NCBI RefSeq assembly: GCF_019797745.1
Contig: NZ_VOSI01000003.1
Location: 372,001 to 436,000 of the forward strand
DNA length: 64,000 bases
Direction: 5' to 3'
From: Edaphocola aurantiacus
GTDB taxonomy: Bacteria > Bacteroidota > Bacteroidia > Chitinophagales > Chitinophagaceae
Made by a program: the position numbers and the translations under genes. The notes below the pieces were generated by a model. It saw only the letters and a list, made by a program, of their open reading frames with translations, had not been told where the DNA came from and did no database searches. Position 1 is the stretch's first letter, and every line of letters starts with the position of its first letter. Positions 34,820-61,113 of this stretch are shown here, one piece after another.

Positions 34820-37800
34820 TTACTGACGGGTTACTTTCAGTGCCTCCACAACGGTGGTCAGTACTTCGGTAATATGCTGCAAAGCATCTTCAACCACGGC
34901 ATCGGCCATTTCGGTCTCTGCACGATTTTCCAGCAGCAGGATATCTCTCCTGAGGGTACTGATACCCATATTCAGTATAGAAGGTTTTAATTTATGTGCC
35001 ACAGCCCCCAGTTGTGTGAAGTTCTGTTGTGTGTAGGCCTCTTGTAATTGTACCAGTGATTCCGGTACGATCTTGATAAAGAGGTTCACCATACGCTCCA
35101 GGAATACTTCATCACCATCGGCCATATCCCGCAGCTTACCCAGGTCATAAAGGGCATCTGCTTCCGGCTCGGCACTTGTTTTCTGTACAAAGTTTTTGCG
35201 CTCTCCGTGATTTACCCAGGCAAATATGATCCTTACCAGGTCCTCCTCATCAAAAGGCTTAGCCAGGTAATCGTTCATCCCTGCTTCCAGACATTTACTG
35301 CGCTCACTGTTATAAGCACTGGCGGTGAGTGCAATAATCGGAATCTCCAGCTGTAACTGGTGGCGTATATATCTTGTCGCCTGTACACCATCCATCAGAG
35401 GCATCTGCACATCCATCAGTATAACATCATATGCTGCATCTTTTTGCAGCATCTCCACCGCTATACGTCCGTTTTCTGCCTCTTCAACTATAGCGCCGCG
35501 CTGGTTCATTATGGTTTTAGCCAGCAGGCGATTCATCTCATTATCCTCTACCAGCAGCACTCTGCAGCCCTGCAGCGCACTTTCGTCAACCGTAGAGTTA
35601 CGGGCAGCCAGTACAGGGTCCAGTGTGCCATAATCAAACAACAGGGAGAAGGAGATGGTTGTACCCACGCCTTTGGCAGAGTCTACTTCAATCGTTCCGC
35701 CCATTAATTCGACCAGCTGTTTCGTTATATTCATACCCAGTCCGGTACCCCCGAACCTGCGGGTAACACTTTCATCTTCCTGCGTGAATTTTTCGAAAAG
35801 ATGTTCCTTAAACTCTTCATTCATACCAATACCGGTATCCTTAATCCGGAATGATACACATTGCTGATCGTGCTCCGTCACTGGTTCCAGTGCACAGATG
35901 ATGTGTACTGTTCCTTTTTCGGTAAACTTGATCGCATTACCTACAAGATTGATCAGCACCTGGTTGATCCGGAACGGATCGCCCCAAACGGCCCTGTGGA
36001 TACCCGGCTCCCAGTCGATATGCAGTTGTATCCCTTTCTCACTGGCTTTATATTCCAGTATATGGGCAACGTTCTGTACGACCTGGTGCAGGTCAAAGGT
36101 GATATGCTCCAGGATGATCTTACCGGACTCGATCTTAGACAGATCCAGCAGGTCGTTAATGATCACGAGGAGGTTATTGGATGCAGAACTGATCGTATCC
36201 AGGAACAGCTTCTGCTGTTTATCTAAATGAGTTTTCTGTAACAGTCGGCTGATACCCAGGATCGCATTCATCGGCGTCCTGATCTCGTGACTGATATTGG
36301 CAAGGAATACCTCTTTGGCATAAGAGGATTGCTCTGCCGCAGCTTTGGCTTTGCGCAGCTCTGCTTCCAGTTGTTTTTGCGGGGTAATGTCGAGGTGTAT
36401 ACCTATCGATCCTTTAAACTCACCCTCACTATTAATGACCGGTGCACCGCTGATCAGCCACCATTTGCGCTGGCCGTTTTTGTTCACTACACGCAGTTCA
36501 TAAGCATCGGATATACCTTTGCTTCTGCGTTCCATGATTTCCTGTGCCTGTACATTATCTACACCTCTCATCAGCAGCGTACCCACATTTTCACCAATCA
36601 GTTCTTCCGGCGGATAGCCACTCATTTCGGAGAAGGAGTTATTTACAAACTTCACTTTCTCGTCGCGGTCTACTTCAACCAGGCCAAGATTCATATTGGC
36701 AATAATATTACGATACTTCTCTTCACTCTCCCTTAATCCCTTCTCAGCCTGTATCCTCTGTGTAATGTCCTGCGCAAAACCAATGATGTAAGGTTGCGCC
36801 CCATCCTCATTAACCATATAGTTCTGGTACAGCAGGTGTATGAGTTTATGGCCTTTTTTATAAGCCGTCATAATGCCCTCGGCACGACCTTCGGCTAATA
36901 TTTTGGATAAGTAGAGGTTATTGAATGCTGCTCTTTTGCCATGCGGCAGCAACACATTTATATTTCGGCCGATCAGCTCCGCCTTGCTGTATCCGAATAC
37001 GGAAATAGCCGTAGGGTTAACATCGATCAGCTTACCCTCCAGGTCATGTGTACAGATCAGTGCCTGGCTGTTATTGAATATACTTTTATACTTGGCTTCA
37101 CTCTGTTTTACCTTTTCTTCAATTTTCTTGCGTTCGGTCAGGTTGAAGCCGTATACCACCATAATATCCAGTGTTCCGTCGGCCTTATAAATAGGGTGCA
37201 GTATACGCAGGTGGTATTCTACCTCACCGTCAGGGCGGGTGATCACCTCTTCCCATTCTCTGCGCACGCCACCTTTTATGGTTTCATTAAAGCGTTGCAT
37301 GCGTTCTGCAACATGCTCTACAGGTCTTCCGCGGTATTCGGCATATTCTATCTCGGTCTTACCGATGATCCATTTGCGGATTTCTTCATTCTTGATCGCA
37401 CTGGGATTGATAAACAGGTAACGGTGATCGGCATCAATGATGGCAATATCTGCCGGTATCTGGTTCAGGATGCGCTCATAAAATGCGCGCTGTATCTCCA
37501 GTTGTTTCTCCGTCTCTACACGGCGCTTGATCTCTTCGGTCAGGAAGTTGGCCAGATCTGATACTTCTGAGGTGCCCTCTTCAGTCATAGGCTGATCTCC
37601 TTTAAGAGAAACCAGTGCTGAGCGCAGCTGCTGTATAGAGTCGTTCTTTACTTCAAGTTCATGCTTAAGCTGATCATTGACACTCAGGTATTCTTCTTCT
37701 GTAATACGGAATGCCCTTTCGGAAAGTTGCAGATCCCGTTCAAAAGACTCGTAAGAATTATGTACTGCCTGAATAAACGCCTGCAATTCCTCGTTGTCCT

Positions 37801-37858
37801 TGCAGGACTCCGGCAGGTATTTATTCAATTGCCTTTGCAGTAATCTATTCAGCTTCAT
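34820..37858 (-). CDS. Hybrid sensor histidine kinase (3 PAS, HisKA, HATPase, REC, Hpt)
   Basis: A 1012-residue soluble multi-step phosphorelay kinase. It begins with ~110 residues of coiled coil and contains three PAS domains (about 115-240, 250-370, 375-495), with no transmembrane segment. The HisKA site is His524 (ANISHEIRTPMN); the ATPase domain has NLVGNAIKFTEKG, DTGIGM and FGGTGLGMNI. Asp816 (ILMDVQMPLMDG) is the receiver phospho-acceptor, and an Hpt domain carries His955 (GAVAHKLKPS). The start overlaps the end of the FIST gene by 14 bp; an NtrC-type regulator lies upstream. The kinase probably phosphorylates that regulator through Hpt, using the FIST protein as a partner sensor. It faces ALDH only at its 3' side. 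Confidence 0.93.
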   Translation of the reverse strand: MKLNRLLQRQLNKYLPESCKDNEELQAFIQAVHNSYESFERDLQLSERAFRITEEEYLSVNDQLKHELEVKNDSIQQLRSALVSLKGDQPMTEEGTSEVSDLANFLTEEIKRRVETEKQLEIQRAFYERILNQIPADIAIIDADHRYLFINPSAIKNEEIRKWIIGKTEIEYAEYRGRPVEHVAERMQRFNETIKGGVRREWEEVITRPDGEVEYHLRILHPIYKADGTLDIMVVYGFNLTERKKIEEKVKQSEAKYKSIFNNSQALICTHDLEGKLIDVNPTAISVFGYSKAELIGRNINVLLPHGKRAAFNNLYLSKILAEGRAEGIMTAYKKGHKLIHLLYQNYMVNEDGAQPYIIGFAQDITQRIQAEKGLRESEEKYRNIIANMNLGLVEVDRDEKVKFVNNSFSEMSGYPPEELIGENVGTLLMRGVDNVQAQEIMERRSKGISDAYELRVVNKNGQRKWWLISGAPVINSEGEFKGSIGIHLDITPQKQLEAELRKAKAAAEQSSYAKEVFLANISHEIRTPMNAILGISRLLQKTHLDKQQKLFLDTISSASNNLLVIINDLLDLSKIESGKIILEHITFDLHQVVQNVAHILEYKASEKGIQLHIDWEPGIHRAVWGDPFRINQVLINLVGNAIKFTEKGTVHIICALEPVTEHDQQCVSFRIKDTGIGMNEEFKEHLFEKFTQEDESVTRRFGGTGLGMNITKQLVELMGGTIEVDSAKGVGTTISFSLLFDYGTLDPVLAARNSTVDESALQGCRVLLVEDNEMNRLLAKTIMNQRGAIVEEAENGRIAVEMLQKDAAYDVILMDVQMPLMDGVQATRYIRHQLQLEIPIIALTASAYNSERSKCLEAGMNDYLAKPFDEEDLVRIIFAWVNHGERKNFVQKTSAEPEADALYDLGKLRDMADGDEVFLERMVNLFIKIVPESLVQLQEAYTQQNFTQLGAVAHKLKPSILNMGISTLRRDILLLENRAETEMADAVVEDALQHITEVLTTVVEALKVTRQ

Positions 37859-38984
37859 AAAAGGTAGTTATTGTCATGGTTTGATTGTGCAGGCTGCAGG
37901 GGCCATGCTGGAGCAGGGGAGCGATCTCTCCGTAGGAGTAAAAACCAATGATGGGTGTTTTACCACCGAAAACATCATTGATGGCTTCCGGTCCTTCTTC
38001 AATACGGTCTTTCAGGATCAGTTTCCTTCCTACGCAACTGATCAGTAAAGCCAGTTGCGGTACTTCTTTATGCATTGCCAGGGCTTGTCTGGCGGCCGAT
38101 GCAGCGGAGAAAATGATCTTATCAAAATTGGCCCGCATAAAACGGACATTGGCACCCAGGGGTATATCTCCGGCAAAGGTCATCGATCCTTCTTCCTGAT
38201 CTATAGATAAAATGGTACGCACCACCTGCTCTCCGGTCTCCGGTAAGGTTACCGAAAGCGGGAAGAGTAAAGCTGCACCCGGTAAGAGTTCCGCCTCGGG
38301 GCCTAAATATTTTTTATATAATTCCAATGCATTTTTTCCGTCGATTTCATACAGGATATTCGCTTTCGATCCGGTTACTTTCTTCTCCAGACCAAAAGTT
38401 TCAAACCCGCCTCCAGAGCCGTGAGACACCTTCAGGTCAGGGCCGTAAAAGCCTATACCGGCGATTACACCTTCTTTCGGTTGTTCATTCAATCCAACTA
38501 AGGTATCCTTGAAGCGATTACCGTCGCCGGCCAGTCCGCCGGTAACGGATACATTCTTAATGGCAATATGATTCAGGGCTTTGGTCAGTTCGCTGCCGTT
38601 TACTTTGCTTCCGTCAGATAATACTAAAAAGGCTGTAAGATCCTCTTTGGGAAAGGATTCCAGCAGACGCAGACCAGCATCATAACTACTTTCTCCCTCG
38701 GTAATGGTAATCGACCTTGTCTTAATCAATGTGGTCGAGAATCGTATGGCTACTACAGCAATGCTGTTTTCATACACCTCAGTATCGAATATTTCGCCGG
38801 CAGTAGAGCAGAGTACAATTTCTGCATGCGGAAACATTTTCCGAAGATCCCGGTAACAGTCATCCTCCAGTAAGTATTCTTTGGCACTGAATGCCAGGAC
38901 AAGTTGCACAGAATCGGGGTCCAAAGCCTGGTTATCTTTGCCGGCCCACTTTCCGGAATGATATAAGTAGCGTTCTACGATCAT
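37845..38984 (-). CDS. FIST-domain signalling protein
   Basis: A 379-residue protein with a FIST N domain (QLVLAFSAKEYLLEDDCYRDLRKMFPHAEIVLCSTAGEIF...GGLAGDG) and a FIST C domain (ALELYKKYLGPEA..., LLISCVGRKLIL..., GFYSYGEIAP). FIST domains are predicted small-ligand (amino-acid-like) sensors found beside kinases and methyl-accepting proteins. There is no signal peptide. It lies 26 bp behind the sigma-54 regulator gene and overlaps the hybrid kinase gene by 14 bp, which suggests it feeds a signal into that kinase. In other bacteria (for example NosP, a FIST protein that binds haem and NO) such proteins control an adjacent hybrid kinase; whether this one binds a cofactor cannot be seen. Confidence 0.9.
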   Translation of the reverse strand: MIVERYLYHSGKWAGKDNQALDPDSVQLVLAFSAKEYLLEDDCYRDLRKMFPHAEIVLCSTAGEIFDTEVYENSIAVVAIRFSTTLIKTRSITITEGESSYDAGLRLLESFPKEDLTAFLVLSDGSKVNGSELTKALNHIAIKNVSVTGGLAGDGNRFKDTLVGLNEQPKEGVIAGIGFYGPDLKVSHGSGGGFETFGLEKKVTGSKANILYEIDGKNALELYKKYLGPEAELLPGAALLFPLSVTLPETGEQVVRTILSIDQEEGSMTFAGDIPLGANVRFMRANFDKIIFSAASAARQALAMHKEVPQLALLISCVGRKLILKDRIEEGPEAINDVFGGKTPIIGFYSYGEIAPLLQHGPCSLHNQTMTITTFYEAE

Positions 38985-39010: not shown

Positions 39011-40369
39011 TTAAATAACGATGGCTTTGTCCTTGATCAATTTGTAGATAGTAGATTTGCCAATATCCAGTTTATCCGCAACCCGTACCACATTATTATC
39101 ATACTTGCGCAGATAGGCCGAAATAATATCAATCGTATATTCCTGCAAAGTCTTCTCCTCATAGATCAGGCCTCTCTTAGAGGTGCCAACAGGCGTAAAG
39201 GTAATATCTTCTTCCCGTATTTCCCCATCGGATGACATGACTGCAGCAAGCTCTATTATAGCTTTCAGCTCACGTACATTGCCGGGATAAGGATAACTCA
39301 TGAGTTTGTTCTTGGCAGCAGTATTAATCGTTAATGCAGGTAGTTTGTTGGCTTTACAAAACTCTTCCAGGAAAGACTTCGCTAAGAGAATGATATCGCT
39401 CTCCCGGTCTCTCAATGGAGGCAGGGTAAGCGGCAGACCGATGAGCCGGTAGTACAGATCTTCTCTGAAAGTATCTTCCTGTACTGCCTGTGCCAGGTCT
39501 CTGTGCGTTGCGGTAATGATCCTTACATCCAGTTTGATGCGCTCATTGCCGCCAACACGTACCAGTTCGCGTTCCTGTATCACCCGCAGCAGTTTCGCTT
39601 GCAGGCTGAGGTCCAGTTCCGCAATTTCGTCCAGGAAAAGGGTGCCCTGGTGCGCTTGTTCAAAGCGGCCGATCTTACGGGCAACAGCACCGGTAAAGGA
39701 TCCTTTTTCATGTCCGAAGAGTTCACTTTCGATCAGCTCTTTAGGTATCGCAGCCATATTCACTGCCACAAAAGATTTAGCGTTCCGGTTAGAGTTGTAG
39801 TGTATCGCTTTGGCCACTACTTCCTTACCGGTACCGGTCTCTCCGGAGATAGATACATTGATATTGGTATGCCTTGCTTTTTCCATCATCTGGAATACTT
39901 TCTGCATGGCTGTACTATTTCCCTTGATCATTTTGTCCGGGCTGAAACGCTGTCCCAGCTCCTGTTTCAGGTGATCAACCTCTTCTTTTAATTCCTGGTG
40001 CTCACGTATACGGAGCACCGCATTCCAGAGCAGGTCTTTGGTATGCTCGTCTTTAGGTATATAGTCTCTGGCACCGGCCCTGAGCAGGCCGATGGCAGTA
40101 CTGATGTCTTCCTGTGCACTGATGATGACAACGGGAATAGTATCATCAGTCTGCAATATTTTTTTCAGTACTGTAGTTCCGTTACCATCCGGCAAGCCAT
40201 AGTCCAGGGTAATTAATCCCGGCTTCTGATGCAGGTTGGCAAGGCACTCTTTGGCAGTGGTATAACGACACAATTCATACTCCGGATTCATGGATAAATA
40301 ATACTCCAGCATCTCCCCGTACCAAGGGTCATCATCCACTATAAAAATCTTAAATTTTCCTTTACTCAT
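39011..40369 (-). CDS. Sigma-54-dependent response regulator (NtrC family)
   Basis: A 452-residue regulator: receiver domain (FIVDDD, phospho-acceptor Asp56 in ITLDYGLPDG, Lys106), AAA+ domain and a Fis-type helix-turn-helix at the end (NNVVRVADKLDIGKSTIYKLIKDK). Within AAA+: Walker A GETGTGKE (176-183), the sigma-54 contact loop GSFTGA (223-228, Ala to Ser at position two of GAFTGA), Walker B GTLFLDEIAE and arginine finger REDLYYRL. All needed for ATP-driven opening of sigma-54 promoters is present. It is the first gene of the regulator-FIST-kinase operon and is divergent from five units that each carry a sigma-54 promoter with paired upstream sites. It is therefore the likely activator of those sRNA genes. 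Confidence 0.95.
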   Translation of the reverse strand: MSKGKFKIFIVDDDPWYGEMLEYYLSMNPEYELCRYTTAKECLANLHQKPGLITLDYGLPDGNGTTVLKKILQTDDTIPVVIISAQEDISTAIGLLRAGARDYIPKDEHTKDLLWNAVLRIREHQELKEEVDHLKQELGQRFSPDKMIKGNSTAMQKVFQMMEKARHTNINVSISGETGTGKEVVAKAIHYNSNRNAKSFVAVNMAAIPKELIESELFGHEKGSFTGAVARKIGRFEQAHQGTLFLDEIAELDLSLQAKLLRVIQERELVRVGGNERIKLDVRIITATHRDLAQAVQEDTFREDLYYRLIGLPLTLPPLRDRESDIILLAKSFLEEFCKANKLPALTINTAAKNKLMSYPYPGNVRELKAIIELAAVMSSDGEIREEDITFTPVGTSKRGLIYEEKTLQEYTIDIISAYLRKYDNNVVRVADKLDIGKSTIYKLIKDKAIVI

Positions 40370-40427
40370 TTTTGATTCATCTATCTATATATAAAAGTAG
40401 TGCATATACTTTATATTAACGATTTTT

Positions 40428-40532
40428 TTCCAGAATATAGAAAAATTTTCCAAAAAATGGAATACATTGTATGATAATTAATTTTTAAATAATTGATTAT
40501 CAGTTATTTTAAAGTTTGGCACGGAATTGGCA
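40428..40532 (+). promoter_or_regulatory. Sigma-54 promoter and enhancers, unit 1
   Basis: Enhancers: TTCC-N7-AGAA (40428-40442) and TTCC-N7-GGAA (40448-40462), 20 bp apart. A conserved ATTGATTATCAG (40492-40503), perhaps an IHF/HU-like bend site. The -24 element TGGCAC (40517-40522) and -12 TTGGCA, with GG at 40518 and GC at 40530 exactly 12 bp apart as sigma-54 requires. It shares the intergenic region with the response regulator gene. Confidence 0.9.
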
Positions 40533-40542
40533 TATACTTAAT

Positions 40543-40737
40543 TGAGCAAAGACATCAAATTACAGATTTTGAATGTGGGTTGTATGATTTTATTTGAAGT
40601 ATGAAGCAATTTTTATTATTCTTCTTTGCGGATCAAAACGGAGCTGTGTGATCTGTATCTAAAGAAATTTTATGGCAAACCATAACACATAGAGGAGTAA
40701 ATGCAAGCGTCAAAGTTTCCACTTGGACGCTTTTTTT
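40543..40737 (+). ncRNA. Array small RNA, unit 1
   Basis: Predicted from the -12 box (+1 near 40543) to the T run at 40737, about 195 nt. Stem H1 pairs GCGGAUCA with UGAUCUGU (40628-40655 region); hairpin H2 is UUAUGG-caaa-CCAUAA (40670-40685); then the purine stretch AGAGGAGUAAAUGC and the terminator AAGCGUC...GACGCUU (40705-40732). It differs from the other units by a diverged 5' part. No conserved reading frame. Function unknown. Confidence 0.85.
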
Positions 40738-40771
40738 ATGCGTTATGTTGAAACACAACATTTTATCCTTT

Positions 40772-40876
40772 TTCCTTTACAGAGAAATATATTCCGGAAT
40801 ATGGAACATATTATTAAATAATAAGAAATTAAATTATTGATTGTCAATTAATTTCAGGTTTGGCACGGCTTTGGTA
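40772..40876 (+). promoter_or_regulatory. Sigma-54 promoter and enhancers, unit 2
   Basis: TTCC-N7-AGAA (40772-40786) and TTCC-N7-GGAA (40792-40806), 20 bp apart; ATTGATTGTCAA (40836-40847); -24 TGGCAC (40861-40866). The -12 dinucleotide reads GT (40874-40875) instead of GC, which may weaken it. Confidence 0.85.
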
Positions 40877-40886
40877 TATAGTATTA

Positions 40887-41071
40887 TGTAAGCAGTTAAG
40901 AAACTTTACAGGTTTAAGTATATAAGTTAATTGAAGTATGAAGTAAAACAATTCTTCTTTACAGATCGCGCGGAGCTGTATGATTTGTAGCAAAAGCTTT
41001 TATGGGTAATCCATAATACATAGAGGAGTAAATGCAAGGGCGTCGAAGTTTCTACTTCGACGCATATTTTT
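40887..41071 (+). ncRNA. Array small RNA, unit 2
   Basis: About 185 nt. Carries the sibling blocks CUUUACAGGUUUAA, UUGAAGUAUGAAGU, CUUCUUUACAGAUC; stem H1 ACAGAUC/GAUUUGU; H2 UUAUGG-guaau-CCAUAA; AGAGGAGUAAAUGC; terminator GCGUCGAAGU-uucu-ACUUCGACGC (41040-41063). A promoterless related module follows after 24 bp. Confidence 0.87.
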
Positions 41072-41094
41072 AAAAGAGGGTTCAACCCCGCTTT

Positions 41095-41191
41095 CTTTAC
41101 AGTAAGGTAAGACCTTAAAAGAGCATATGTAAACCATAACATATAGAGGAGTAGTAATCGCCGGAGTGTTCACTCTGGCGATCTTTTTTTT
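41095..41191 (+). ncRNA. Promoterless 3' module related to the array RNAs (2b)
   Basis: Keeps the order of the 3' half of the siblings with changed sequence: CUUUACAG, hairpin UAAGGU-aa-ACCUUA, hairpin AUAUGU/ACAUAU containing ACCAUAA, AGAGGAGUAGUAAUC, and a terminator AUCGCCGGAGU-guuc-ACUCUGGCGAU with a 9-T run. No sigma-54 box or enhancers precede it; it could be reached by readthrough from unit 2 or be a decayed copy. Confidence 0.6.
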
Positions 41192-41254
41192 TAGACAGTA
41201 AGGACGCATGTAAAATTCAAACTGACTATCCGCATGTAGGTAACTATTTTCTTC

Positions 41255-41634
41255 GTCCTTTTGTCCGGCAACAAAAGGACCAAAAGTGCCTTTGTTTTCA
41301 TCAAGGCGATTGCGGGCACCGCCATTTTGTATCGTTGCGTGCATTGATCGTCTGAGCTTAACGTGTGAGGCGTTCACTGCTCAACGATCGCAGCTCCAAC
41401 CAAAATGGCTATCGCTGCGATGAAAACAATAAGCGATCCGTACTGTACAGATCGCTCGAAAGGCCTTATAAATCCGGCGTTAAGAAAATCATTGGCTCGG
41501 TCGATCAAGTCGGAAACCACTGTCTGAACGTAGTGAGTCTGGTTTGCGGCCGGCCGACACATTGATTTTTAGCCAGGAATTTATACAGCCTTGATTTTTT
41601 GGCGCTACCTTTTGCATCAAGGCAAAAGGTAGCA
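41255..41634. repeat. Structured intergenic element with 173-bp dispersed repeat (copy A)
   Basis: 41462-41634 recurs inverted at 60941-61113 with about ten differences over 173 bp by my reading. The element begins with hairpin GTCCTTTTGT/ACAAAAGGAC (41255-41280), has a long inverted pair TTGTTTTCATC (41292-41302) / GATGAAAACAA (41419-41429) with inner GCCATTTTG / CAAAATGGC, and ends in hairpin GCTACCTTTTG/CAAAAGGTAGC (41604-41633). It separates array units 2b and 3. No protein-coding sense is evident. Confidence 0.8.
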
Positions 41635-41708
41635 AAAGATATAAATAGACTATTTAAATCATAATATTAGTTCTTGTTTCCTTTAAGCGGGTACTCAGTG
41701 AATGCAAT

Positions 41709-41812
41709 TTCCAAAGAACAGAACCTGGTTCCCGAAAATGGAACACATGACCGAAGTTTATTTTATAAATAGTTGATTATCAGCTTCCATAAATTGTGGC
41801 ACGGCTTTGGCA
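41709..41812 (+). promoter_or_regulatory. Sigma-54 promoter and enhancers, unit 3
   Basis: TTCC-N7-AGAA (41709-41723), TTCC-N7-GGAA (41729-41743), GTTGATTATCAG (41772-41783), -24 TGGCAC (41797-41802) and -12 with GC at 41810-41811: full consensus. Confidence 0.9.
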
Positions 41813-41822
41813 TATACTATTA

Positions 41823-42009
41823 TGTTATCAGTTATAAACTTTACAGATTTAAATAGGAGAGTGTTTATTTGAAGTTTAGTTAACCTATTTCTTCTTTACA
41901 GATCAAAACAGAGCTGTATGATTTGTTAAATGCTTTTATGGCTCAGGCCATAATCATAGAGGAGGTAAATGCATAAGCGTCGGGGTTTCTACTCCGACGC
42001 TTTACTTTT
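41823..42009 (+). ncRNA. Array small RNA, unit 3
   Basis: About 187 nt. Sibling blocks CUUUACAGAUUUAA, UUGAAGU and UUCUUCUUUACAGAUCAAAA; H1 UACAGAUCA/UGAUUUGU; H2 UUAUGGC-ucag-GCCAUAA; AGAGGAGGUAAAUGC, here a full anti-anti-SD-like AGGAGG; terminator AAGCGUCGGGGU-uucu-ACUCCGACGCUU (41975-42002). Confidence 0.9.
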
Positions 42010-42086
42010 ATTGGGCATTTATTTTTCGTAGCGTCACCTCAACGGCTTATGCTCCGGGGTACATAATACGGTTATCACAGTTCATT

Positions 42087-42191
42087 TTCCAAGGTGCAGA
42101 ATATAATTCCTGAAAATGGAATATATAAATGGTTGTTTTATTTGTAAGTTATTGATTATCAAATTAAATAAATTGTGGCACAGCTTTGGTA
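42087..42191 (+). promoter_or_regulatory. Sigma-54 promoter and enhancers, unit 4
   Basis: TTCC-N7-AGAA (42087-42101), TTCC-N7-GGAA (42107-42121), ATTGATTATCAA (42151-42162), -24 TGGCAC (42176-42181); the -12 dinucleotide is GT (42189-42190) as in unit 2. Confidence 0.85.
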
Positions 42192-42201
42192 TATACTATT
42201 A

Positions 42202-42384
42202 TGTAAGCGGTTAAACTTTACAGATTTAAATAGGAGAGTGTTTATTTGAAGTGTAACTAATTATTTTGTACAGATCACAATGAAGGCTGTGTGATGTGTA
42301 AAAAGCTTTTATGGCTCAGGCCATAATCATAGAGGAGGTAAATGCAAAAAGCGTCGGGGTGTCTACTCCGACGTTTTACGTTTT
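42202..42384 (+). ncRNA. Array small RNA, unit 4
   Basis: About 183 nt, closest to unit 3. H1 is UACAGAUCACA/UGUGAUGUGUA with one mismatch; H2 UUAUGGC-ucag-GCCAUAA; AGAGGAGGUAAAUGC; terminator GCGUCGGGGU-gucu-ACUCCGACG with a weak T-rich tail. Confidence 0.88.
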
Positions 42385-42416
42385 GGTACTACATCTTAAA
42401 AGATACAAAGTGCATT

Positions 42417-42521
42417 TTCCAAAGTACAGAATATAATTCCCAGAAATGGAACAAATTGGCTATTGTGTACTTTGTAAATTATTGATTATCAGCTTAAATA
42501 AATTGTGGCACGGCTTTGGCA
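42417..42521 (+). promoter_or_regulatory. Sigma-54 promoter and enhancers, unit 5
   Basis: TTCC-N7-AGAA (42417-42431), TTCC-N7-GGAA (42437-42451), ATTGATTATCAG (42481-42492), -24 TGGCAC (42506-42511), -12 GC at 42519-42520: full consensus. Confidence 0.9.
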
Positions 42522-42531
42522 TATAGTATTA

Positions 42532-42720
42532 TGTAGGCGGTTAAACTTTACAGATTTAAGTATAATGCTATTTGAAGTATGAAGTGATTATTCTTCTTTA
42601 CAGATCAAAACGAGAGCTGTGTGATTGTAATAAAATAACTTTTATGGCGGCTAACCATAATTTATTAGAGGAGTAAATGAAAAAGGAGTCAAAGTATCTA
42701 CTTTGACTCCTCATTTTTTT
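42532..42720 (+). ncRNA. Array small RNA, unit 5
   Basis: About 189 nt. CUUUACAGAUUUAA, UUUGAAGUAUGAAGU, CUUCUUUACAGAUCAAAAC; H1 UACAGAUCA/UGAUUGUA; H2 UUAUGG...CCAUAA with a 7-nt loop; AGAGGAGUAAAUGA; terminator AGGAGUCAAAGU-aucu-ACUUUGACUCCU and a 7-T run. It ends 13 bp before the convergent methyltransferase stop, so the terminator may serve both strands. Confidence 0.9.
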
Positions 42721-42732
42721 ATACAATAATGA

Positions 42733-43494
42733 TTACTTCCTGACTATATACAGGATCTCTTTACGATCCAGACGGTACTGTTCTACCAGCACAGGATCAA
42801 GCCTGCTGACCAGGTCATTCTCCTCAACGGAGAAGCCCGCAGCCCGTAGCTTATCGGGATAATCCCGGCCATACAGGCGTACATGATCTTTCTGCCAATA
42901 ATGTATTTCTCTTAACTCATCGGTATTATAACGTTCATCTTCCAAGGTGAATGCGCTATGGTAATCGACAGGCACCTGTAATATTGCCCAGCCTCCCGGT
43001 TTTAGTATACGGTATAATTCCTTCATACACTGCTTATCATCCTCTACATGCTCCAGCACATGATTACAGAAAATCACCTCAAAGCTATTGTCCTCAAAAG
43101 GTGCATGATGCAGGTCGAAATGTATATCTGCTATAGGCGAATTATAATCTGCGGTAATATATTGCTCTTGTTTCAGCTTGCGGAACCGTTTATAAAAACA
43201 CTGCTCCGGTGCAATATGCAGTACCTTAGCGTTGGACGTAAAAAAATCGGTTTCCTGCTGCAGGTATAACCACATGAGCCGGTGCCGCTCCAGTGAAAGC
43301 GTGCCTGGTGCCAGCACATTGTGACGTTTGGTTTGCGCGACCTGTCCGTAAGGCAGGAAGCTGCGGTATGATTTACCATTGATCGGGTCGGTAAAGCGAT
43401 TGCCCTGGTACAGTAATTCTAAAATACTGCGCAGGCGTACGCTGAGTTCGATTAATACAGGGCGGGGTAGAACTCTTAATAAATAGTGATACAT
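42733..43494 (-). CDS. Class I SAM-dependent methyltransferase
   Basis: A 253-residue methyltransferase of the Methyltransf_11 type. Motif I is degenerate (KVLHIAPEQCFYKRFRK, in place of the glycine-rich loop), followed by ITADYNSPIADIHFDLHHAPFEDNSFEVIFCNHVLEHVEDD (motifs II/post-I) and LKPGGWAILQVPV. The N-terminal ~60 residues are helical with a possible small binding site. The substrate is unknown. It is convergent with the last sRNA unit; no functional link is implied. Confidence 0.85.
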   Translation of the reverse strand: MYHYLLRVLPRPVLIELSVRLRSILELLYQGNRFTDPINGKSYRSFLPYGQVAQTKRHNVLAPGTLSLERHRLMWLYLQQETDFFTSNAKVLHIAPEQCFYKRFRKLKQEQYITADYNSPIADIHFDLHHAPFEDNSFEVIFCNHVLEHVEDDKQCMKELYRILKPGGWAILQVPVDYHSAFTLEDERYNTDELREIHYWQKDHVRLYGRDYPDKLRAAGFSVEENDLVSRLDPVLVEQYRLDRKEILYIVRK

Positions 43495-58365: not shown

Positions 58366-59019
58366 TTACTGCTGCTCCCAGAACAGCTGGTACAGCTTAG
58401 GGCATATTGCCTGCATAGTACCGGGCACCTGCTCTCTCCAGTTAATTTCCAGGCCCGGATAATCTTCCGGACGGGTATGTACCTGCGTATAATCAATTGC
58501 AGTATTAAGTTCCTGTTCTGTTTTCTTCTTAAAGATTGTTTCCGGTAAGGTCTGCAGGGCCTCAAAATCAAATGCGCTATTGACATTGGTCTGCACCGCA
58601 AAGGCTATATCATCCGGATGTTGTATGCCTATAGTATAAATCTTTTGTCCGCGCGAGATCAGCCAGCAGCGAAAGAATGTGAAATCTTCTTCTCCGCAGC
58701 CGCCTTTCATAAGGTAAGCCGCACACCATAAAGAAGAACTGTAGCTATCCATCAACAGCTGATCGGTACGCAGTTTGAAGCCGGCCAGTTGCTCCGGTGT
58801 CATTTTTTCAAGGGCTTCTGACAGGTATTCTTCCTGGTCCTCCAGCGTTTCGGTATTTTGCAGGGATGATTCGATCAGTTTCCAGTAAGCCGCTTCCGGC
58901 ATAGGTTCTGTAAAGCCCGGCTGATTATTCGCAATAACTGTATAGGTAGTTGCGTGAGCGGTCTCTGCAGATATGCTGCACAGGCTTAATAAGATTCCTA
59001 AAAATACAGAACGGATCAT
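58366..59019 (-). CDS. DUF4240 family exported protein
   Basis: A 217-residue protein with an N-terminal hydrophobic signal (MIRSVFLGILLSLCSISAETAHA) and a DUF4240-type domain (AAYWKLIESSLQNTETLEDQEEYLSEALEKMTPEQLAGFKLRTDQLLMDSYSSSLWCAAYLMKGGCGEEDFTFFRCWLISRGQKIY). Start chosen at 59019 for the signal peptide. DUF4240 proteins often occur in polymorphic-toxin or immunity contexts, but none is near here. Function unknown. Confidence 0.8.
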   Translation of the reverse strand: MIRSVFLGILLSLCSISAETAHATTYTVIANNQPGFTEPMPEAAYWKLIESSLQNTETLEDQEEYLSEALEKMTPEQLAGFKLRTDQLLMDSYSSSLWCAAYLMKGGCGEEDFTFFRCWLISRGQKIYTIGIQHPDDIAFAVQTNVNSAFDFEALQTLPETIFKKKTEQELNTAIDYTQVHTRPEDYPGLEINWREQVPGTMQAICPKLYQLFWEQQ

Positions 59020-59077
59020 AGGTTTGTTTTTTGAGCAACAAGATAATACCCCTGATCGTAAAACAAAAGAGAATAGG

Positions 59078-59123
59078 ATAAATAAAAAGTCCCGGAACAT
59101 TTGTTCCGGGACTTTTTATTTAT
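59078..59123 (-). terminator. Terminator of ppa
   Basis: 22-bp near-perfect hairpin with core AAAAAGTCCCGGAAC / GTTCCGGGACTTTTT, just after the ppa stop on the minus strand. Confidence 0.9.
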
Positions 59124-59132
59124 GTAAAAGAA

Positions 59133-59669
59133 TTATTTACCAAACTTTACATTGTAGTCAGTGATCGCTTGTTGCAGGATTTCACGTGCTTTTTCTGCAC
59201 CGTGGAAGTCTTGAATCACTACTTCTTTATTCTCCAGGCGCTTATACTCTTCGAAGAATTGTTTTACTTCTTTCAGTAAGTGAGCCGGTAATTCGCTGAT
59301 ATCGTTGATGTGTGCAACGCTCATGTCTTTTTCGCAAACTGCGATCAGTTTATCATCAGCCTCACCCTGGTCAACCATGCGCATTACACCAATGATTTTC
59401 GCAGAAACGATACACATCGGGTGAATGTCTACCTGAGACAATACCAGGATATCCAACGGATCGTTATCATCACAGTAAGTCTTAGGGATAAAACCATAGT
59501 TATGCGGATAGTATACAGAGTGATATAATACTCTGTCCAGGCGCAACATGCCAGAATCTTTATCTAATTCATATTTTGCTCTGGATCCTCTTGGGATCTC
59601 GATGATCGCATCTACTATTTCAGGCGCTTTATCGCCATAGCTTACGGTGTGCCAAGGATTAAATTCCAT
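59133..59669 (-). CDS. ppa: Inorganic pyrophosphatase (family I)
   Basis: A 178-residue soluble pyrophosphatase. The metal-binding core [10 protein letters not shown] and the strand [15 protein letters not shown] are in place, as is [17 protein letters not shown] with its Glu/Lys/Arg. Start chosen at 59669 ([12 protein letters not shown]). Size fits the family. It is a housekeeping gene with its own terminator. Confidence 0.96.
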
Positions 59670-60917: not shown

Positions 60918-60940
60918 AAATCTTATTGTTATATATTGAT

Positions 60941-61113
60941 TGCTACCTTTTGCCTTGATGCAAAAGGTAGCGCCAAAAAATCAAGGCTGTATAAATCCCT
61001 GGCTAAAAATCAATGTGTCGGTCGGTCGTAAACCAGACTCACTTCGTTCAGACAATGGTTTGCAACTTTATCGACCGAGCCAATGATTTTCTTGACGCCG
61101 GATTTATAAGGCC
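60941..61113. repeat. 173-bp dispersed repeat (copy B)
   Basis: Inverted copy of 41462-41634 with about ten differences by my reading. It starts with the same TGCTACCTTTTGCCTTGATG hairpin end. It lies in the 404-bp gap 60803-61206, between the TonB receptor stop (61207) and its terminator (60874-60917). The short reading frame across it mirrors one in copy A but with many replaced residues and is not thought to be coding. Confidence 0.85.

Follow-up and report, generated by a model that had tools for sequence, protein, structure and literature searches.

A tandem array of five putative sigma-54-dependent small RNA genes beside an NtrC-type regulator gene in Edaphocola aurantiacus

The genome of the soil bacterium Edaphocola aurantiacus (Chitinophagaceae; 3.69 Mb assembly in 8 contigs) contains, at approximately positions 40428–42720 of a 64-kb stretch (the window, that is, the whole of the DNA analyzed here), five tandem units built to one common plan, which raises the question of what these units encode, what controls them and how their products act. 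In each unit, a distal imperfect palindrome (TTCC-N7-AGAA) is followed 20 nt on by a proximal palindrome (TTCC-N7-GGAA), a site resembling that of integration host factor (IHF), a -24/-12 promoter and an RNA of approximately 190 nt, whose 3′ end is a stem-loop with a T-rich tail; the RNA start was placed in all units approximately 12 nt after the -12 box, the usual distance. From its sequence, the array probably represents five stand-alone small RNA (sRNA) genes controlled by one two-component system, with redundant RNAs that act in trans. Within this interpretation, the transcriptional circuit is much surer than the step at which the RNAs would pair with their targets.

Promoters and Terminators of the Five Units

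Sigma-54 promoters carry GG at -24 and GC at -12, with 10 nt between them. All five units belong to this promoter class: TGGCACN5TGG[C/T]A is present in 5/5 units, the -12 dinucleotide being GC in three and GT in two (units 2 and 4). A search of the window with the pattern TGGCACRNNNTTGGYATAKA (up to two mismatches) returned five matches, which are the five units and all of which have no mismatches, against a mean of 0.25 in shuffled sequences, none of 100 shuffles reaching five. With the enhancer pattern TTCCNNAAAWTGGAA (up to one mismatch), six matches were obtained in the window against 0.40 expected, and five of them are the proximal enhancers of the units; the distal palindromes were recognized by sequence reading and alignment.

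A terminator scan of the window identified 9 sites against 1.3 in shuffles, and those on the forward strand belong to units 2–5 and to a promoterless remnant of a unit (site at 41157). The terminator of unit 1, the stem of which has a mismatch, was missed by the scan. Each unit thus has, as judged by sequence, the promoter and terminator of its own that characterize a stand-alone gene for a trans-acting sRNA, and unit 5 faces a convergent gene and is therefore not a leader. One RpoN is encoded in the genome (Sigma54_DBD match, 189 bits), and the response regulator encoded next to the array has a Sigma54_activat match of 237 bits and retains a GSFTGA loop, as read from its sequence; these two matches supply what transcription by sigma-54 requires, namely rpoN and a competent enhancer-binding protein.

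The original prediction, made from the sequence alone, had described five units of this plan with -24 boxes at 40517, 40861, 41797, 42176 and 42506, and had taken them for tandem sigma-54 sRNA genes beside a sigma-54 regulator. The positions proved exact and the plan was borne out, save that the terminator of unit 1 escaped the scan; the reading as sRNA genes gains support from RpoN, the GSFTGA loop, the terminators, the gene convergent with unit 5 and synteny in a related species. The 3′ remnant at 41080–41190, like a sixth full unit described below, adds to that first description. The features of the array, all on the forward strand, are as follows; paired enhancers were located by sequence reading and pattern search, IHF-like sites by motif scoring and promoters by pattern search.

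40428..40462, +, unit 1 paired enhancers (40428–40442, imperfect; 40448–40462)
40493..40510, +, unit 1 IHF-like site
40517..40532, +, unit 1 sigma-54 promoter
40543..40739, +, unit 1 RNA with terminator (alignment, covariance model; start inferred)
40772..40806, +, unit 2 paired enhancers (40772–40786, imperfect; 40792–40806)
40837..40854, +, unit 2 IHF-like site
40861..40876, +, unit 2 sigma-54 promoter
40887..41072, +, unit 2 RNA with terminator (alignment, covariance model, terminator scan)
41080..41190, +, promoterless remnant of the 3′ part of a unit, with terminator (alignment, terminator scan)
41709..41743, +, unit 3 paired enhancers (41709–41723, imperfect; 41729–41743)
41773..41790, +, unit 3 IHF-like site
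41797..41812, +, unit 3 sigma-54 promoter
41823..42009, +, unit 3 RNA with terminator (alignment, covariance model, terminator scan)
42087..42121, +, unit 4 paired enhancers (42087–42101, imperfect; 42107–42121)
42152..42169, +, unit 4 IHF-like site
42176..42191, +, unit 4 sigma-54 promoter
42202..42383, +, unit 4 RNA with terminator (alignment, covariance model, terminator scan, fold z-score)
42417..42451, +, unit 5 paired enhancers (42417–42431, imperfect; 42437–42451)
42482..42499, +, unit 5 IHF-like site
42506..42521, +, unit 5 sigma-54 promoter
42532..42718, +, unit 5 RNA with terminator (alignment, covariance model, terminator scan)

With ten palindromes (five of them imperfect) in approximately 2.0 kb beside the regulator gene, the array might also be imagined as a DNA sink that titrates the regulator through its enhancers and yields RNAs as by-products. 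A sink, however, needs no -24/-12 boxes, no conserved 190-nt RNA and no terminators, all of which have been kept, and it is the least probable of the explanations considered here.

Geometry of the Promoter Module

The conserved promoter geometry originally claimed is exact in the five units and extends beyond them. A pattern combining enhancer, gap and promoter was found 8 times in the E. aurantiacus genome and 9 times in that of Edaphocola flava, against 0 and 0 for a reversed control, and the gap between enhancer and promoter is 53–54 nt in all 17 of these Edaphocola modules. The IHF-like site of the units reads TTGATNNTCA(A/G), and the best match to TTGATNATCAA (0–2 mismatches) ends 13 nt before TGGCA in 17/17 Edaphocola promoters. 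When promoters were scored with WATCARN4TTR, an IHF consensus, scores of 8–9 of 9 clustered 19 nt before TGGCA, at 22 of 49 promoters, with 10, 2 and 1 at other offsets and 0 at the rest; this set of 49, like the set of 30 promoters from other members of the family, was partly selected, as 20 loci (L148–L167) had been picked partly for a visible TTGAT motif. The TTR half is weaker in the Edaphocola promoters (scores of 5–8). Two promoter sets are unselected, namely the 17 from Edaphocola and the 9 modules that a script located in 20 regulator loci of other genomes; among these nine, the IHF-like motif (up to two mismatches) lies 13–14 nt from the box in four.

The RNAs and Their Coding Potential

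The five RNA bodies align over approximately 190 nt with a mean column identity of 75%, and conservation spans the whole RNA with no single short seed. The predicted fold comprises a 5′ part, a two-hairpin junction that UUCUUCU/AGAGGAG closes, and the terminator; the fold z-score of unit 4 is -3.2. In the terminator helix, 5 of the 12 pairs are changed on both sides. No Rfam family matched the window at gathering score, and the nine sub-threshold matches within 40300–42800 include none to Qrr, GlmY or CrcZ.

The units might alternatively be small-protein genes, in which AGAGGAG(G)UAAAUG would serve as a genuine ribosome-binding site with its start codon. AGAGGAG is indeed present in all 13 full units known from the two species E. 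aurantiacus and E. flava, followed by UAAAUG or GUAAAUG in 12 of them and by GUAAAAUG in unit f4. The frame after the ATG, however, varies among units because the A-runs differ in length, and reaches the terminator stem; a closed open reading frame (ORF) of at least 8 codons (9–13 amino acids) is present in only 5/13 (a2, a5, f4, f5, fC9), with peptides that differ except among the siblings a5/f5/fC9. No reading frame is common to all 13 units when ORFs closed inside the unit are counted; the most widespread, a TTG-start frame, occurs in 6/13 with differing lengths, and other frames recur among orthologues or close siblings. The original statement that no protein frame is conserved therefore stands for the set as a whole, with this partly shared frame as a qualification, and a coding function is very improbable.

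Copies, Synteny and Conservation

A covariance model built from the five units was used to search the E. aurantiacus genome, 195 genomes of the family and, with more sensitive filters, the genus. It identified a sixth full unit on another contig of E. aurantiacus (C1:407814–408010) and, in E. flava, five tandem units and two dispersed ones. At C1:583.6 kb, a truncated unit whose promoter looks intact precedes a probable secreted-protein gene, and at C3:472.2 kb a decayed remnant has retained little beyond the terminator. In E. flava the same units adjoin the same regulator, so that the array recurs beside its regulator in a related genome; units and regulator co-occur in two of the five genomes of the genus and are both missing from the other three. 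Between orthologous units, identical bases number 947/980 in the RNA (95.7–98.5% per unit pair), 181/190 in the enhancers, 96/100 in the promoter and 219/269 in the linker.

A dispersed non-coding repeat of approximately 470 bp occupies 41191–41690 of the window, recurs at 60929–61113 and has 45 matches (approximately 40 places) in the genome. It lies 65 bp from the unit at C1:408 kb and approximately 80 bp from the truncated unit at C1:583.6 kb, and in E. flava it is found in or near three unit loci (L114, L116, L117) and 3 kb away in a fourth (L115). The repeat may be involved in copying units. Weak partial matches to the RNA model were also seen on both strands at 58982–59176 of the window (30 and 22 bits); they possibly reflect terminator-like sequence only.

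Such a history could be taken to mean that the units are functionless relics, 5′ leaders of lost sigma-54 targets multiplied together with the repeat. Consistent with this, one secreted-protein leader of the same genome (L112) has kept the promoter together with a CTTTACAGATTTA...AATTGAAG module, the truncated unit precedes another gene for a probable secreted protein, and copies of the repeat occur within the array and next to both the sixth unit and the truncated one. Relics would not be expected to keep exact geometry at five promoters or terminator pairing through compensatory change; the high identity of the E. flava units also speaks against decay, but the spacer that follows unit 2, composed largely of the repeat, is as alike (552/572, 96.5%). 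This explanation is improbable to a high degree, if slightly less so than a coding function.

The Adjacent Regulator, Kinase and FIST Protein

Three genes adjoin the array on the opposite strand.

39011..40369, -, NtrC-type response regulator (receiver domain and sigma-54 activator AAA+ domain), presumed activator of the units (Pfam Response_reg, Sigma54_activat and AAA_lid_14; GSFTGA; association with the promoter module)
37845..38984, -, protein with FIST N and FIST C domains, presumed sensor partner (Pfam; sole NCBIfam match NosP)
34820..37858, -, hybrid histidine kinase, PAS-HisKA-HATPase-REC-Hpt, presumed kinase of the regulator (Pfam; homologue at most regulator loci)

The regulator is not a LuxO equivalog, as it scores 329 bits with the NCBIfam LuxO model, for which the cut-off is 800; the NtrC, AtoC, PEP_resp_reg and NifA models are among those that outscore LuxO on it, all under their cut-offs. 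At 21 regulator loci (20 from other genomes of the family and that of E. flava), homologues were sought within the fetched stretch, the threshold for the kinase being more than 100 bits; the PAS-rich hybrid kinase has a homologue at 20/21 and the FIST protein at 10/21. The FIST protein matches the NosP model with 66 bits against a cut-off of 450, and a sequence search of the PDB gave no relative at E values up to 1. Sensing of nitric oxide by this protein was considered and set aside on these grounds, and for the same reasons the parallel with NosP, VpsS and LuxO is kept as a likeness only.

Family-Wide Association of the Promoter Module with the Regulator

Regulator orthologues (E ≤ 1e-85) were found in 104 of 294 Chitinophagaceae genomes and not in the other 190. 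The family-wide module pattern occurs at 109 places in 65/294 genomes, the reversed pattern at 18 places. Nine of the 20 regulator loci from other genomes hold the module; although gaps of any length up to 115 nt were admitted, all nine have an exact enhancer at 54 or 73–75. Modules with gaps of 53–55 or 73–75 are found in 31/104 genomes with the regulator vs. 6/190 without it (p = 1.3e-10), whereas the genomes that have modules with other gaps only, which serve as an internal control, number 8 and 20, respectively (p = 0.53); by place, such other-gap modules number 19 in regulator genomes and 22 in others. Since the gap classes were chosen after the results on regulator loci and the IHF motif, a retest omitted the 21 genomes used there and gave 18/83 vs. 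6/190 (p = 3e-6), with 6 and 20 genomes for other gaps (p = 0.50). All these p values are nominal, because the genomes are related and were counted as independent.

From these sequence patterns, the promoter module appears to be tied to the adjacent NtrC-type regulator and to belong to a family-wide regulon of that regulator, rather than to the RNAs alone. Its presence before protein genes in relatives likewise indicates that the promoter is part of a wider regulon. In what follows, L and G numbers denote loci and genomes examined. Genes confirmed by Pfam behind the module encode receiver-domain proteins (L159, L164), a DUF4402 protein (L153) and an ECF-type sigma factor (L161); the gene at L010 has a PA14 match below the cut-off only. 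In E. aurantiacus itself, two further module promoters lie upstream of probable secreted-protein genes, and Pfam confirms a type IX sorting tail in the product at L112. In G020, from genus g21, which has the regulator, two dispersed promoters (L157, L158) each precede an A/C-rich stretch of approximately 500 nt; the two stretches are similar to one another, have no ORF in common and bear no likeness to the Edaphocola RNA. To judge from these sequences, recruitment of RNAs as outputs seems to have happened at least twice.

Several further arrangements were observed. Six dispersed genes for DUF4402-like secreted proteins in G097 (L094, L148–L152) and four in G171 (L153–L156) stand behind the module and have CAAACA-rich leaders, the assignment coming from Pfam for L153 and from the translation for the rest. 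In Mucilaginibacter sp. PPCGB 2223 (L083, L077), the same geometry is found upstream of very short ORFs, tandemly repeated in L083, which by eye resemble single membrane helices. At L076 (G079) and L165 (G156), two genomes in which the regulator had no match, sigma-54-like promoters with an enhancer gap of 67 precede approximately 200 nt made up of CAAACA repeats and then a hairpin resembling a terminator, and the interval shows no long ORF. Sigma-54 promoters at L086 and L091, in metagenome-assembled genomes of Flammeovirgaceae and Cytophagales, are followed by short ORFs, a shared GAGGT...TGGTTTTAGTCGA and a terminator-like hairpin.

Possible Action of the RNAs

In the proposed mechanism, the hybrid kinase would phosphorylate the NtrC-type regulator, with the co-encoded FIST protein probably tuning the kinase. 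The regulator would then bind the two TTCC-N7-GGAA-like palindromes 20 bp apart, and a bend at the IHF-like site, 19 nt before the -24 box, would bring it to the RNA polymerase–sigma-54 complex. Five promoters in the array would fire, together with the sixth on another contig and the two upstream of probable secreted-protein genes. The resulting RNAs of approximately 190 nt, with their 5′ module, two-hairpin junction and terminator, are most likely redundant and would add to a common dose in trans. As to their action, they may pair with ribosome-binding sites through CUUCUUUACAGAU, which an internal AGAGGAGUAAAUG could mask. Pairing through this stretch is favored because it is conserved and resembles an anti-Shine-Dalgarno sequence, and because the RNA holds its own complement resembling a ribosome-binding site; the step is put forward tentatively, with the balance of judgment somewhat against it. 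A wider proposal, on which judgment is almost evenly divided, is that the Chitinophagaceae sigma-54 regulon of hybrid kinase and NtrC-type regulator, often with a FIST protein, has recruited non-coding RNAs on more than one occasion, and that the Edaphocola array acts in trans without Hfq or CsrA and constitutes a new class of regulatory RNA outside Rfam.

The following findings weigh against redundant, trans-acting RNAs under this regulator. The candidate pairing stretch is exact in 7/13 units, with one change in three, two in two and three in one. When the RNA loci and one leader are set aside, the two genomes hold 12 and 16 sites complementary to the repeated motif, where a control gives 1 and 0; 16 of these 28 were inspected, of which 14 lie within or antisense to an ORF, and the 16 inspected sites take no consistent place relative to start codons. 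Compensatory change in helices other than the terminator is confined to 1/28 pairs, so that the conserved RNA structure originally claimed has firm covariation behind it only in the terminator helix. Among the 195 family genomes, searched with filters that lose weak matches, the RNA family was matched in two, both of them sister species, and it was not found in the three other members of the genus despite the more sensitive filters (2/5 genus genomes match); at the sensitivity used, the RNA is therefore lineage-specific. The post-terminator spacers are 664/700 identical between the two species, a figure carried by the one that follows unit 2 (the other four together giving 112/128), and since spacers too are alike, identity alone is no proof of selection on the RNA. 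In addition, 73 of the 104 regulator genomes lack the module at the stringency of the pattern and 6 genomes without a regulator match have one, and Hfq has no match in the E. aurantiacus genome.

A search with the seed RATCTGTAAAG yielded no convincing target among the 16 of 28 sites inspected.

The main rival to pairing leaves the circuit as proposed and makes the RNAs decoys that titrate an RNA-binding protein through their several copies and a repeated motif, CUUUACAGAU. Precedents exist, as RsmX/Y/Z titrate CsrA. The motif is present twice per RNA (up to one mismatch) in 10/13 full units and in 0/6000 shuffles of the six E. aurantiacus units; at this stringency, neither species has it in unit 1, and unit 4 of E. 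aurantiacus has one copy. Conservation along the full length of the RNA in place of a single short seed, the multiple gene copies, which suit titration, and the lack of an Hfq match would all fit such a role. Against it, no candidate protein was identified, and CsrA, the best-known partner, has no match in the E. aurantiacus genome, although the control search detects it in Escherichia coli, Bacillus subtilis and Thermotoga maritima; a CsrA decoy was accordingly rejected. GlmY provides a further precedent as a decoy of RapZ (PMC6075780). Titration is unlikely on the whole, and pairing in trans is retained as the preferred mode of action.

Comparison with Known Systems

Gammaproteobacteria offer well-known examples of sibling sRNAs under sigma-54 control, whose action there is accounted for by Hfq or a decoy partner. 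The Qrr RNAs use Hfq, and in the CbrB–CrcZ/CrcY system of Pseudomonas, sibling RNAs are controlled by sigma-54 and an NtrC-type regulator, CrcZ carrying A-rich Hfq/Crc motifs; the array shares this type of control, whereas Hfq has no match in the Edaphocola genome. In the literature searched, outside which most subscription journals fall, no report of such an array was found, and the Edaphocola papers include none on RNA by title. The main text of one survey of sigma-54 regulons does not contain the terms "small RNA," "sRNA" or "Chitinophag" (PMC12316311).

The Brt RNAs of Bartonella form a genus-specific family, as the Edaphocola RNAs do, and are arranged in tandem with genes for DNA-binding proteins (PMC5387305); the opening of the abstract mentions no sigma-54 module. 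In Vibrio, four to five sibling sRNAs (Qrr1–5) depend on one regulator, LuxO, which receives its input from hybrid kinases by way of an Hpt protein (PMC4211561; PMC6769237). NosP is a FIST protein whose gene accompanies those of a kinase and a response regulator (PMC12570481), and in Vibrio cholerae NosP acts on VpsS, which feeds LuxU/LuxO (PMC6769237). In its proposed plan, the array shares with LuxO–Qrr several siblings, one regulator, a hybrid kinase with Hpt and a FIST-type partner (PMC4211561; PMC6769237; PMC12570481). The qrr genes, however, are distal (PMC4211561; PMC6769237), whereas the array is tandem; here Hpt is fused to the kinase, the FIST protein falls far under the NosP cut-off, and there is no Rfam match, to Qrr or otherwise, and no Hfq match, so that the likeness to LuxO/Qrr without sequence likeness that was first pointed out is one of plan.

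In the QseE/QseF(GlrR)–GlmY system of Enterobacteriaceae, the sRNA gene lies beside its own two-component system operon, and an NtrC-type regulator acts through several upstream activating sequences, with the aid of IHF, on a sigma-54 promoter (PMC6075780). The array shows this plan by sequence. GlmY differs in being one gene against five, in its activating sequence TGTN12ACA and in an overlapping weak sigma-70 promoter (PMC6075780), and its Rfam family has no match in the array. On this analysis, the array resembles QseF–GlmY and LuxO–Qrr most closely in plan and is a member of no RNA family tested. The same plan in a Bacteroidota genome that has no Hfq or CsrA match would offer a test bed for multi-copy sRNA action without those proteins, and the promoter module, with its two enhancer positions, IHF-like site at a fixed distance and -24/-12 boxes, allows targets of the regulator to be predicted across the family. 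The array points to an RNA-based control circuit of the kind known from vibrios and gut bacteria.

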